DNA from: Armatimonadota bacterium
GTDB taxonomy: Bacteria; Armatimonadota; Chthonomonadetes; Chthonomonadales; JAMCWF01
Length of the DNA: 33,171 nucleotides
Direction of reading: 5' to 3'
NCBI GenBank assembly: GCA_023481295.1
Contig: JAMCWF010000039.1
Coordinates: 1 to 33,171 of the forward strand
The position numbers and the translations under genes were made by a program. Of this stretch, positions 3,466 to 24,537 are shown piece by piece. Below the pieces are notes generated by a model. That model did not search any database and was not told the DNA's origin. It saw only the letters and a program-made list of their open reading frames with translations. Position 1 is the stretch's first letter, and every line of letters starts with the position of its first letter.

Positions 3466-4362
3466 CCGGTTTCCATCTCATTGAGCTCTCATCCGGCATT
3501 CACCATGAGAGACCACTGGGAGAGTTGCGAATCCCCACTCTGTCCGTCGTAAATCGTGGAAAACCGGAGAGGTATTGAAATTCTGCATGGATAGGTGGAT
3601 AAATCTAGTGAAAATAGTAATAACTGCCAATTGGTGGGGAACAGGAATGCGAACCTCAATGCAATACTTGATCGCGCTGTGGAGACTGTTGACCTACACC
3701 GTGAGGTGTTCGAGGTACTGCAATGATGGGTGAAAACGGAATGCGCCGGCCGCCCCAACCGCTGAGGGCACCGCGAAAAAAGCCACCGATCGATTTTTCG
3801 ATTGCTACTTCTCATTACGCTCTACTACAGCCACCGGGTTTTATCGCAGGTTAGGTAGGAAATAGGGTTATTGGCAAGGGTATTCAACTGCAGCGTTTGG
3901 TCAAAGCGGAGCTTCACATTAGGCAACCAACGTGCCACGCAGCCGAGCGAGCAGTGTTGCGGCGATGCAAAGAGACGATTCGAGATCACGCAGGCTCCCC
4001 TTTCCGCTATACGATAATAGGCGTTGCGCACCCCATTCTCACTTGGTGCGCTCCGCTTTTGCCGGATGGTGTCAGATCGTCGCTATCCGTTACTTGATCC
4101 CAATGATTAAACACTCAACCAAGCACACAATATATTATCTGCAAACCAGGTAATTTGTCTAGGGTTAAAAGGCACCAATTAGCGACCAGTGCGTGATTTT
4201 TTCGCTTGGTTGACGTTCCGAACAAGTAGCCGGACATATATTCAGACGCCGTTCGGCCGTTTATGTTCCCAACGAATTGTTGGGCGATTCGCCGGATCAC
4301 GGGTGCGCCCGGCTCGTTACGCTGGAGCAGTCGGTCACTGCCGGTTGAGATAGCCTCTCTGC

Positions 4363-4377: not shown

Positions 4378-6186
4378 ATGAAAACCGATCTCTCTAGAAT
4401 CCGTAACTTTTGCATCATCGCCCACATTGACCACGGCAAGTCCACGCTGGCCGACCGCATCCTCGAGATCACCGGCGCCATTACCGAGCGCGAAATGCAG
4501 GATCAACTGCTCGATACGATGGATATCGAGCGCGAACGAGGCATCACCATCAAAATGACCGCGGTCCGGCTCACCTATACCGCCCTGGACGGCAGCGAAT
4601 ACGAGCTGAACTTGATTGATACGCCCGGTCACGTCGATTTTACCTATGAGGTCTCCCGGTCGCTGGCCGCCTGTGAGGGTGCGGTGCTGGTGGTGGACGC
4701 CGCTCAGGGCGTGGAGGCGCAGACGGTGGCCAACGTCAACCTGGCCCTCAACCACAAACTGGCGATCGTGCCGGTCATCAACAAGATCGATCTGCCGGCC
4801 GCCGACCCGGATCGGGCGCGCGAGGAGATCGAAAACGTGCTGGCCATTGACGCCAGCGAGGCGGTCCTGGCCAGCGCAAAGCAGGGGATCGGCACTCGGG
4901 AGGTGCTCGAGGCGGTGGTACGTCAGATACCGCCGCCGACAGGTGATATCGAAGCGCCTCTTCGCGCACTAATTTTCGACAGCCACTTCGATACCTATCA
5001 AGGCGTGGTGTGCTACATACGGGTGGTGGATGGTGAGATCATGCCCGGCATGCAGATCCGATTGATGGCAACCGGCAAGGAGTACGAGGTGATGTCGGTG
5101 GGGGTGTTCAGGCCAAAGATGGAGCCGGGCAAGCGGCTGCAGACCGGCGAGGTTGGGTATGTGACGGCCGGCATCAAGACGATCGGTGATGCTAACGTGG
5201 GCGATACCATCACCGGCGCCGAGCATCCGGCATCAGAGCCGTTATCCGGATACCGGCGGGCGAAGCCGATGGTCTTTTGCGGCTTCTATCCGATGGATGG
5301 GGCCGACTACCCCGACTTGAGGGAGGCGCTCGCCCGCTTGCAGCTCAACGATGCCGCCCTCAGCTATGAGCCGGAAACCTCCGCCGCATTGGGCTTCGGC
5401 TTCCGGTGCGGATTCCTCGGCCTGCTTCACATGGAGATCGTCCAGGAGCGGTTGGAGCGCGAGTTTAACCTTTCGCTCATCGCAACCTCACCCTCGGTGG
5501 TTTATCAGGTGATGACGACCGCCGGCAAACGACTGGAGGTGGACAATCCCGCCCTGATGCCGCCGGCGGTGGAAATCGCCGCCATCGAGGAGCCGTTTGT
5601 CATCGCCACGATCATGTTGCCGGGCACCTATGTTGGCCCCTCGATGGAGCTGGCTCAGGAGCGGCGCGGTGAATTCATTAAGATAGATCATCCTGCCCAA
5701 GACCGGGTTATGCTTTCCTACCGTCTGCCGCTGGCCGAGATACTGTTGGATTTCTTTGACCAGTTGAAGAGCCGCAGCCGTGGTTACGCCTCCTTCGATT
5801 ACGAAATGGAGGGATACCGCGAATCGAAGCTGGTAAAGCTGGACATTTTGATCAATGGGGATGTGGTGGACGCCCTCTCCTTCATCACCCATCGAGATAA
5901 GGCCTACTCGCGGGCGAGGCTGTTTGTAGATCGCTTAAAAGAGGTGGTTCCGCGTCAGCAATATGAGGTGCGAATCCAGGCGGCGATCGGGGGGAAAATC
6001 ATTGCGGCGGAGACGGTAAAGCCGTTCCGTAAAAACGTGATCGCCAAATGCTACGGCGGCGACATCACCCGCAAGCGCAAGCTGCTCGAGAAACAGAAGG
6101 AGGGCAAGCGCCGAATGAAGCAGGTCGGCAGCGTCGAGATCCCGCAGGAGGCGTTTCTCAGCGTGCTGAAGATCGGGCAAGGCTGA
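4378..6186 (+). CDS. lepA: Translation elongation factor 4 (LepA)
   Basis: [52 protein letters not shown]; full-length 602 aa with LepA-type C-terminus. Confidence 0.98.
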
Positions 6187-22034: not shown

Positions 22035-22062
22035 TTGTAGGGCTGAAAATCCGGTGTATAAT
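22035..22062 (+). promoter_or_regulatory. Putative sigma-70-type promoter TTGTAG-N16-TATAAT for the HTH/terminase cassette
   Basis: Hexamers at 22035-22040 and 22057-22062, about 35 nt before ATG 22097, with GGAGGT SD at 22084. Confidence 0.5.
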
Positions 22063-22096
22063 AGGTAGACAAATATATACTTCGGAGGTTGAGCGG

Positions 22097-22636
22097 ATGA
22101 GCAACTGGGTGACGCTCTCTTGGCCGAAATGGGAGCTGGAGCAAAAAGCGGATGATCTGTTGAGAAGCGAAAGGCGTGAGGGGGATAGTCCGGTTTATAC
22201 CGAGAAGCAGCTTGCTCGAAGGGGCCGCGCCGCGATACCGGTCGAGCAGATCGAGGACTGGGTGGCGGATGAGCGAAGGATGCGTTACGATGAGCTGCGC
22301 TTTATGCTGGCGACCAGCCGGCTGAGCGGCGCCGATCGGCTGTGCGTGGATCTCTGGCTGGATGGCTACACCCAGCATGAGGTCGCCGAGGTGATGGGGG
22401 TAAAGCAACAGGCGGTCTCACGGCGGTTGCGGCAGGCGCTCAAACGACTATGGGAGGAGGGAGCGCTCTCATTTTGGGAGTTTTCGCGTCGGGTGATCTA
22501 TCGCCGGCCGGTTCATTCACACAAGTACTGCATCTCGCGGATTTGTCGGCGGTGCGGGGAGGAGTTCCTGGTCGGGTTGGGTTGCGGCATATACTGCTCG
22601 GATCGGTGCCGGGAGGCCGGAAAACATAAGGAGTAG
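22097..22636 (+). CDS. Sigma-70 region-4-like HTH protein with C-terminal Cys-rich zinc motif
   Basis: LSGADRLCVDLWLDGYTQHEVAEVMGVKQQAVSRRLRQALKRLWEE; C-terminal CRRCGEEFLVGLGCGIYCSDRCREAGKHK. Start moved to 22097. Confidence 0.8.
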   Translation: MSNWVTLSWPKWELEQKADDLLRSERREGDSPVYTEKQLARRGRAAIPVEQIEDWVADERRMRYDELRFMLATSRLSGADRLCVDLWLDGYTQHEVAEVMGVKQQAVSRRLRQALKRLWEEGALSFWEFSRRVIYRRPVHSHKYCISRICRRCGEEFLVGLGCGIYCSDRCREAGKHKE

Positions 22637-22639
22637 ATT

Positions 22640-22966
22640 TTGGTTGAAAAGAGGCGATTGGAGATGGAGCATCCCGACCTGACCACCGCGGCCGATATCC
22701 GGAGGCGGCTGGCGGCCAACTGCGAACGGGTGGAAAAGCTGCTGGCCGAGAATTCGATGGAGGATTTGAGGGCGGTGAGGTCGCTGCTGGCTGAAGTTCG
22801 GCAGCACCTGGCGCTCGCAATTCGGGCGATGAAATTGCTGCAAGAGGCGGAGGCGGTGGAGCGGTTTAAAGCGGTTGTGCTGGAGGCGCTCAACGAAGCG
22901 TCACCCCGGCTGCGGAAAAAGGTGCTTCAGCGGCTGGAGCAGGCGGAACCGGCCGAGGAGAGGTGA
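22640..22966 (+). CDS. Small, predicted alpha-helical/coiled-coil protein (108 aa), TTG start
   Basis: Charged helical composition; AAGGAG SD (22628-22633) next to the upstream stop; sits between the HTH gene and terL. Confidence 0.65.
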   Translation: MVEKRRLEMEHPDLTTAADIRRRLAANCERVEKLLAENSMEDLRAVRSLLAEVRQHLALAIRAMKLLQEAEAVERFKAVVLEALNEASPRLRKKVLQRLEQAEPAEER

Positions 22967-23010
22967 TCTGGCCGGCATGTGGCCTGCCCACAGCAGGCAG
23001 GGGGTAGGCG

Positions 23011-24537
23011 ATGGGTGACCAGCATCTAGAAGATTTTTGCCGGCGATTGCGGCTGGTTTTCGGCGGGGAGGCGATGGATAATCGTTTTCGGCGGTATCGG
23101 CGGAACCCGGAGCGGTTTGCCGGCGAGGTTTTAAGCTCACACTGGTGGTCTCGGCAGCGGGATATTGCGAGGAGCGTGACGCAGAGCCGACGCACGGTGG
23201 TGAAATCGGCGAACGGGGTCGGCAAGACTTATCTGGCGGCCGACCTGGCGCTCTGGTTTCTCTATTGCCATGCCCCCAGCATCGTGCTGACCACCGCGCC
23301 TACCCGGCGGCAGGTTGAGAGTCTGCTTTGGGAGGAGATACGGCGGCGGATGCGCCGGGCTAACGCGGAGTTACCGGGGATGCTGCTCAAAACCAGGCTG
23401 CAAATTCGTGAGGGATGGTACGCGCTGGGATTGGCTACCGATGAGGACGTCCGATTTCAGGGATTTCACGCCGAAAACCTGTTGGTCGTGATGGATGAGG
23501 CGTCGGGGGTGCCGGATGAGATATGGAACGCAGTCGAAGGGGTGGCGGTCGGACGGAACAATCGGGTGCTGGCGATCGGCAATCCGTTGGCGCCGGTCGG
23601 CCGGTTTTATCGCGCGTTTCGTTCCCCGCGATGGAAAGCATTGACGGTCAGTGCGCTGGAGCACCCGAACGTGATCGGTCGGGGTGAAATCATCGAGGGG
23701 GCGGTGACCAGGGAAACGATCGCCGATCGGGTGGCGGAGTGGTGCGAGGAGGTGACGCCACCAGCGGAAGGAGCACGTTCCAACGTACCCCTACATGGGC
23801 AGGCAGCCCGCAATAACTTGTTTGAGTGGGAGGGGCACTGGTATCGCCCGAACGATCTCTTTTTGACCCGCGTGCTGGGTGAGTTTCCGGAGGATGCCGA
23901 GAATCGGCTCATCTTGCTGAGATGGATCGAGCGGGCGATGAAGAGTGATGTGGCGCCGGTTGGGCTGGTTTTTATGGCGGTGGACGTGGCGCGCTTCGGC
24001 CAGGATTGCAGTGTCATTGCGGTGCGTCGCGGCCCAGCGGTGGTGCGGCTGGAGAGCTTTCGCGGTCTGGATTTGATGAATTTAACCGGCCGGATAGTGG
24101 AGGTGGCTCGCGAGGAGCGCCCGGAGAGCATTATGGTGGATGTGGTGGGCGTCGGCGGTGGGGTGGTGGATCGGTTAAATGAGCTGGGGATCGAGGGGGT
24201 CATTGGGGTAAATGTCGGAATGCGGTCGCAGCAACCGGAGCGTTTTGCCAACCTGCGGGCCGAGCTTTACTGGAGCTTACGGGAGCGGCTGGCTGAGAAC
24301 CACATCCGGTTGCCTTCCGATCGAACGCTGCTGGAGGAGCTTTCGAGCTTGACCTACCGCTTCACTTCGAGCGGGCAGGTGCAAATGGAGAGCAAGGAGA
24401 CGATGCGGCGGCGAGGGGAGAGTTCGCCGGACCGGGCCGATGCGGTGGCGATGCTCTGGGCGCTGCGAACGGAGGAGGGGGTCGCCGTCTCAACCGAGCT
24501 GGGTCAGGGCGTCAACTGGGTCGATGAGCGGTGGTAA
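23011..24537 (+). CDS. Phage-type terminase large subunit (TerL), ATPase and nuclease motifs intact
   Basis: VVKSANGVGKTYLAADLALWF (Walker A), NLLVVMDEASGVPDEIW (Walker B), LAIGNP, MAVDVARFGQDCSVIAVRRG / MVDVVGVGGGVVDRLNE / SPDRADAVAMLWAL (RNase H-like nuclease acids). Confidence 0.92.
   Translation: MGDQHLEDFCRRLRLVFGGEAMDNRFRRYRRNPERFAGEVLSSHWWSRQRDIARSVTQSRRTVVKSANGVGKTYLAADLALWFLYCHAPSIVLTTAPTRRQVESLLWEEIRRRMRRANAELPGMLLKTRLQIREGWYALGLATDEDVRFQGFHAENLLVVMDEASGVPDEIWNAVEGVAVGRNNRVLAIGNPLAPVGRFYRAFRSPRWKALTVSALEHPNVIGRGEIIEGAVTRETIADRVAEWCEEVTPPAEGARSNVPLHGQAARNNLFEWEGHWYRPNDLFLTRVLGEFPEDAENRLILLRWIERAMKSDVAPVGLVFMAVDVARFGQDCSVIAVRRGPAVVRLESFRGLDLMNLTGRIVEVAREERPESIMVDVVGVGGGVVDRLNELGIEGVIGVNVGMRSQQPERFANLRAELYWSLRERLAENHIRLPSDRTLLEELSSLTYRFTSSGQVQMESKETMRRRGESSPDRADAVAMLWALRTEEGVAVSTELGQGVNWVDERW

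Follow-up and report, generated by a model that had tools for sequence, protein, structure and literature searches.

The three co-directional genes analysed here, which encode an HTH/Zn protein, a short helical protein and a terminase large subunit (TerL), probably serve regulation and packaging in a gene transfer agent (GTA) that derives from a virus, belongs to the bacterium, is inherited vertically and has its genes split over separate loci. This explanation is considered the most likely one because the proteins derive from phages, the genes are endogenised at split loci and their descent is concordant with that of the host. On balance, we also lean towards the narrower proposal that this GTA evolved independently within the Armatimonadota from a podovirus-like phage, with unlinked operons joined by a palindromic operator and a possible tie to DNA damage. 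The first-pass annotation had described the trio as a possible domesticated module rather than debris; a selected, conserved module of gene-transfer type agrees with the results below, but its stand-alone character does not.

Organization of the terminase locus

The window (the whole stretch of DNA analysed, 33,171 nucleotides) belongs to genome G000, a 1.23-Mb assembly that is 65% complete. The relatives in which TerL was found are Armatimonadota MAGs of the Chthonomonadales/Chthonomonadaceae, and the order as sampled comprises three families, f1 (G000 and G001), f2 and f3. The features of the locus are collected in Table 1. As initially annotated, the trio is tightly spaced, with intergenic gaps of 3 and 44 nt, and all of its frames are open. 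It is flanked by the genes for a radical-SAM/SPASM protein and by tsaB, both of which are host genes, and no further phage genes were seen on the 38-kb contig of the trio. No convincing att-like repeats were found around it, and a gene-map survey of the window and the mapped head clusters recognised none of the integrase, replication and lysogeny genes that are traits of temperate prophages.

Table 1. Features of the terminase locus, with positions in the window.
Feature	Position	Strand	Evidence
-35-like hexamer TTGTAG	22035..22040	+	Sequence; kept in same-genus G001
-10 hexamer TATAAT	22057..22062	+	Sequence; kept in G001
Palindromic operator-like box AGGTAGACAAATATATACTT	22063..22082	+	Cross-validated motif; abuts -10
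Shine-Dalgarno GGAGG	22084..22088	+	Sequence; kept in G001
HTH/Zn regulator, 179 aa	22097..22636	+	PF04545 Sigma70_r4 E=3e-8; invariant Cys; dN/dS 0.056
Helical protein, 108 aa, candidate GTA-type small terminase	22640..22966	+	Position before TerL; 3 predicted helices; dN/dS 0.119
TerL, 508 aa, ATPase and nuclease motifs intact	23011..24537	+	phrog_2 E=8e-40; Sf6 gp2 relative; dN/dS 0.121, 0.137

TerL displayed the features of a phage large terminase, namely the Walker A (SANGVGKT) and Walker B (VVMDEAS) motifs and the RNase-H-like acidic residues within AVDVARFG, MVDVVG and SPDRADAVAM. Residues K72, T73, D162, E163, D325, D377, D474 and D477 were invariant in six relatives, which confirms the earlier description of a full-length protein with these elements intact. 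The nearest solved structures included Sf6 gp2 (E=2e-11), with the likeness lying over the nuclease domain. In G001, terL carries a 1-bp frameshift (one base missing) near residue 350 in an assembly with a coverage of ~1.6, for which a sequencing error and a recent loss cannot be told apart.

The middle protein has 108 residues when read from the TTG at 22640, and its relatives start at an ATG matching 22664; this ATG is probably the actual start, which gives 100 residues. The protein is conserved immediately upstream of TerL in f1 and f3, and neither it nor another small terminase (TerS) candidate was detected in f2. Structure prediction yielded three helices (pLDDT 73), while no HTH or DNA-binding family matched the sequence, a fold search returned no significant match and no close copies were present in viral collections. 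The TerS of GTAs is short, almost all-helical and without a DNA-binding domain, and lies immediately upstream of terL (PMC6854486). The helical protein can be read as a candidate TerS of this type, since its size, place and three-helix form fit, and the absence of a small terminase implied in the annotation is doubtful.

The HTH/Zn protein combines a sigma region 4-like HTH (residues 70–121) with a C-terminal Cys4 motif, in line with its earlier annotation, and Cys150, Cys153, Cys167 and Cys171 were invariant in ten relatives. A sigma-70 factor has regions 2 and 4, and only the region 4-like HTH is present here. Within the order, 18 genomes encode full-length forms. Shorter relatives of the HTH part occur across the phylum among housekeeping genes or in other non-phage settings; viral contigs held two short HTH fragments only. 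Within the order, the HTH and TerL genes occurred together in 17 genomes, HTH alone in 1, TerL alone in 2 and neither in 11 (Fisher p=1e-5, with the relatedness of the genomes ignored). The suggestion that this protein recruits DNA in place of a small terminase is weakened because the HTH gene lies far from terL in f3 (four genomes), its HTH relatives are non-phage and the neighbouring 108-residue protein is TerS-like, although the f2 genomes keep some room for it. Judged from the sequences, a transcription factor is more likely than a TerS replacement.

Portal and capsid loci in related genomes

The same TerL family was found across all three host families. In f1 and f2 the unit consists of HTH-(helical)-TerL between host genes, whereas searches for portal and capsid genes, which covered 31 genomes of the order, located the matching partners elsewhere. 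One matching portal each was present in G001, G008, G022 and G030 on a contig other than that of TerL, and the first three also had one matching capsid gene each off the TerL contig, the incomplete G030 yielding the portal alone. The second locus of G001 occupies ~18.4–28.9 kb of contig C172. Genes for portal, protease, cement and capsid were mapped there together with connector-like and spike-like genes, and holA and a transporter gene flank the locus. In f3 (G005, G019 and G021), the helical protein, TerL and portal genes stand together and the HTH gene is located elsewhere, adjoining the tail-end genes of the system in G005; the protease and capsid genes follow the portal in G005 and G019 and lie on another contig in G021. 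Matches to phage families were obtained for TerL, portal, protease, cement and capsid. The clusters showed no recognisable integrase, tail tube or tape measure gene, and no lysis gene was identified there with confidence. The system is patchy within the order, several genomes being without it, and the split loci may make it less likely, depending on the size of the head, that such a GTA would package its own genes in full.

No genome carried the matching portal and capsid pair without TerL. G000 and G015 were the only genomes with this TerL for which neither portal nor capsid was recovered, and the G015 contig ends in terL. In G000 itself only the terminase locus was seen, as neither a protein search nor the flanking DNA of the G001 capsid locus led to a portal or capsid gene. 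This absence is uninformative because the completeness of the assembly is 65% and it lacks almost all of the G001 capsid-locus flanks too, and we infer that G000 has a capsid locus of its own.

These arrangements bear on the idea of a stand-alone terminase module in which the HTH protein replaces TerS and there is no capsid partner. Such a module would suit the position of the HTH gene, directly before TerL in f2 and at the head of the trio in f1, as well as the lack of a detected f2 TerS candidate; it is scarcely credible given the single matching portal and capsid genes elsewhere in the same genomes, together with the distance of the HTH gene from TerL in f3 and its kinship with non-phage regulators. 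The annotation had similarly stressed that the trio has no phage neighbours. This holds locally, where the flanks are housekeeping genes, but the relatives keep partner genes elsewhere or adjacent, and a self-contained cassette is not supported: single-copy portal, protease and capsid genes occur at other loci (G001, G008 and G022; portal in G030) or downstream of TerL (G005, G019 and G021). Portal genes downstream of TerL, a position that the annotation had proposed as the mark of an ordinary prophage remnant if found directly downstream in close relatives, were seen in f3; the f1 and f2 units lie between host genes.

Several further observations concern the surroundings of these genes. Several genera have Y-family DNA polymerase and NAD-epimerase genes embedded in the head cluster or next to it (L043, 10198–12235; L042; L109; L111; L112). 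A small DUF3467 gene was found in 11 genomes of the order, and in 11/11 it either adjoins phage head or terminase genes or lies no more than ~2 kb away (G003:C3, G007:C275, G009:C73, G011:C137, G013:C50, G017:C154, G023:C135, G001:C172, G005:C7, G019:C27 and G021:C132), and at least two different head modules are involved. A second compact head module stands beside DUF3467 in L053 (G023:C135), L054 (G013:C50) and L239 (G007:C275), with a TerL that is 30–37% identical, a different portal and capsid, and parAB directly adjoining in 3/3 genomes; it is possibly a second inherited module. The second-type TerL is broken by a stop codon in G009 (L056, G009:C73, 5182–6605) and open in G011 and G017. 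G025 contains two different TerL copies of the family (C741 and C951), by duplication or contamination. In the G001 capsid locus (G001:C172), an ~80-bp repeat near 3539–3620 of L105 matches dozens of G000 sites and represents a dispersed intergenic repeat.

Inheritance and selection

GTAs were judged here by the characters set out in PMC9662315. Besides proteins derived from tailed phages, these comprise endogenised genes, often at several loci, as seen in G001, G008, G022 and, for the portal only, G030, and in the separate HTH gene of f3. They also include vertical inheritance with host-congruent trees. The remaining characters concern the particles, which carry largely random host DNA, cannot take up all of the agent's own genes and pass their DNA on to other cells. 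Families f1, f2 and f3 each formed a clade in the TerL tree and in a five-protein concatenated tree, in agreement with the GTDB family codes and an RpoB tree in which f3 was weakly supported; in the portal tree alone, f2 was unresolved. A random nine-taxon tree would contain all three of these clades with a probability of 45/135135 = 3.3e-4. The chromosomal position of the system is kept within genera only, and the same place was found in two genera. Compositional characters were less uniform. The elevation of GC1/GC2 that is typical for the GTA of Rhodobacter capsulatus was not clear in the module and GC3 was raised instead, which could also mean a foreign origin, strongly so in G005, and a lower side-chain carbon content was found for the capsid but not for TerL, a measure that is confounded by host GC.

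A lineage-restricted defective prophage or satellite, still moving within the order and sometimes mobilised by a helper phage as capsid-forming satellites are, would be in keeping with a module GC above that of the host (by 11 points in G005), with positions that differ between genera, with the existence of related genuine phage contigs (L179) and with a motif-like site pair in another mobile-looking element of G000 (L289). It is nevertheless unlikely, as no integrase or replication genes were recognised, the genes are split over two or three loci, the trees are family-concordant, the position is the same within genera and the operator-like box described below is common to the separate loci.

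The trio is under purifying selection, like its neighbours. Between G000 and G001, dN/dS was lowest for the HTH gene and similar for the helical protein and TerL (Table 1), with 0.09–0.27 for the flanking host genes; the two TerL values refer to the parts before (0.121) and after (0.137) the G001 frameshift. For G005 and G015, in which TerL occupies the same chromosomal place, the value was 0.084 over the available half of TerL. Ordinary prophage debris is therefore a very improbable account. The genes are indeed phage-derived, several genomes of the order are without the system and one frameshifted orthologue of terL was found, the low-coverage G001 copy; yet dN/dS is low on both sides of that frameshift, the frames are open in three families, and the promoter and operator are conserved. 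For the gene set of the window, debris is refuted by the dN/dS values, unless selection stopped very recently.

An operator-like box shared by unlinked operons

The 5' region of the trio, including the promoter and the Shine-Dalgarno sequence, is conserved between G000 and G001, and the DNA farther upstream has diverged. The promoter and strong Shine-Dalgarno sequence of the first-pass annotation are thus both present and retained, but the promoter hexamers (TTGTAG-N16-TATAAT, 22035–22062) match 9/12 consensus bases, which alone is not beyond chance. A simple pairwise comparison of upstream regions did not rise above shuffles; a formal motif search then gave a 20-bp palindrome, tAGTAgAcA-ta-TgTcTACTa (consensus tAGTAgAcAtaTgTcTACTa), that is common to the upstream regions of the HTH, helical-TerL and portal operons.

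When the motif was trained on HTH promoters alone, the held-out portal and TerL operons scored higher than almost every one of the 193 host upstream regions used as controls (p=1.2e-6), most of which lie on contigs that carry the modules. In leave-one-genome-out validation, 17/18 of the HTH, TerL and portal operons reached the 5% level of the host set or better, and the expectation-maximisation score was 118 for module upstreams vs 38–52 for random host sets. The box stands before essentially none of the 193 host genes. It also occurs 40 bp before TerL of G018 (score 18.1), a site outside the training set. The window box was the top site in the readable 0.85 Mb of G000 (20.5 bits; runner-up 15.0) and the sole site within ≤2 mismatches of the consensus in the whole G000 assembly. 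Two weaker copies were noted at 5645 and 6963 of G000:C25 (L289), flanking a region without clear genes and adjoining large plasmid- or phage-like reading frames.

Because the HTH, TerL and portal operons have this box in common, the unlinked terminase and capsid loci look like one regulon. The position of the box, abutting the -10 hexamer, suggests that it acts in repression, and the presumed binder may be the HTH protein, LexA or another factor. A link with DNA damage, to which the regulon is possibly tied, is hinted at by Y-family DNA polymerase genes within the head cluster and, in G021, by a box that precedes an ImuB-like gene by 20 bp. The Y-family polymerase and NAD-epimerase genes inside the cluster might also hint at a wider stress programme, and no long-tail genes were seen; both fit a domesticated head module put to another use, with capsids serving defence, altruistic lysis or storage without gene transfer. 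That use is improbable, given that terminase, a TerS-like protein and portal, needed for DNA packaging only, are all kept and that PADLOC defence families gave no match beyond a weak HTH hit.

Under the GTA explanation, a repressor would leave the box and the HTH/Zn protein and terminase would be made, the HTH/Zn protein acting as a sigma-region-4-like transcription factor. Sharing this box, the portal-protease-cement-capsid operon at its unlinked locus would be switched on together with them. The 100–108-residue helical protein, as a TerS without a DNA-binding domain, would allow unselected host DNA to be packaged, and TerL, an Sf6-like enzyme of headful type, would move this DNA by way of the portal into a capsid, probably one with a short, podovirus-like tail. 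We infer that particles form in this way, package host DNA at random and transfer it to cells.

GTAs of known genetic basis represent a few independent lineages. If the proposal is true, it adds a further GTA lineage whose age is no less than that of the three host families, in a phylum that is deep and little studied, and it would show that phage packaging has been domesticated repeatedly and across a broader range of bacteria. The operator common to the loci would further provide a sequence handle for split GTA loci that are missed by searches for phage clusters, and for naming the control protein.

Comparison with known systems

A search of open-access papers found none that connects GTAs with the Armatimonadota. 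Among viral sequences, the nearest IMG/VR matches were 38% (TerL) and 60% (capsid) identical, and the nearest phage records 40% (TerL) and 30% (capsid). Capsids within the order are 70–77% identical to each other, compared with at most 60% to viral ones, and these identities place the module as a branch that belongs to the host lineage, within a phage family that also has free members. One such member is L179, a genuine related podovirus-like phage contig from IMG/VR that shares the order terminase, portal, protease, cement, capsid. Unlike the module, it is a free or integrated 98-kb phage contig, and its proteins are only 29% (TerL), 34% (portal) and 58% (capsid) identical.

Capsid-forming satellites (cfPICI) carry head and terminase genes. 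They resemble the present system in having these without recognised tail genes, whereas here no integrase was recognised, the loci are split and the trees are host-concordant.

The GTA of Rhodobacter capsulatus (RcGTA) likewise has a short helical TerS directly before TerL (PMC6854486), and its TerL is a headful enzyme for which Sf6 gp2 is among the near solved structures (PMC7947584), as it is for the TerL of the window. A DNA-binding region of sigma-like character is present in its activator GafA (PMC9638019), as in the HTH/Zn protein, although GafA is larger and a different protein. The likeness is one of protein traits and gene order, and RcGTA differs in its siphovirus-type tail genes, none of which were seen here, and in its GC1/GC2 signature, which is not clear here.

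The GTA of Brachyspira (BhGTA/VSH-1, Brachygtaviriformidae) belongs to another phylum and has another gene set, and its particles and transfer are demonstrated, whereas those of the present system are predicted. In layout it is alike: BhGTA keeps one conserved terL apart from its structural cluster and has co-diversified with its host (PMC9662315), and in the Armatimonadota terL of G001, G008, G022 and G030 likewise lies on another contig than the matching portal, with TerL trees that recover the host families.
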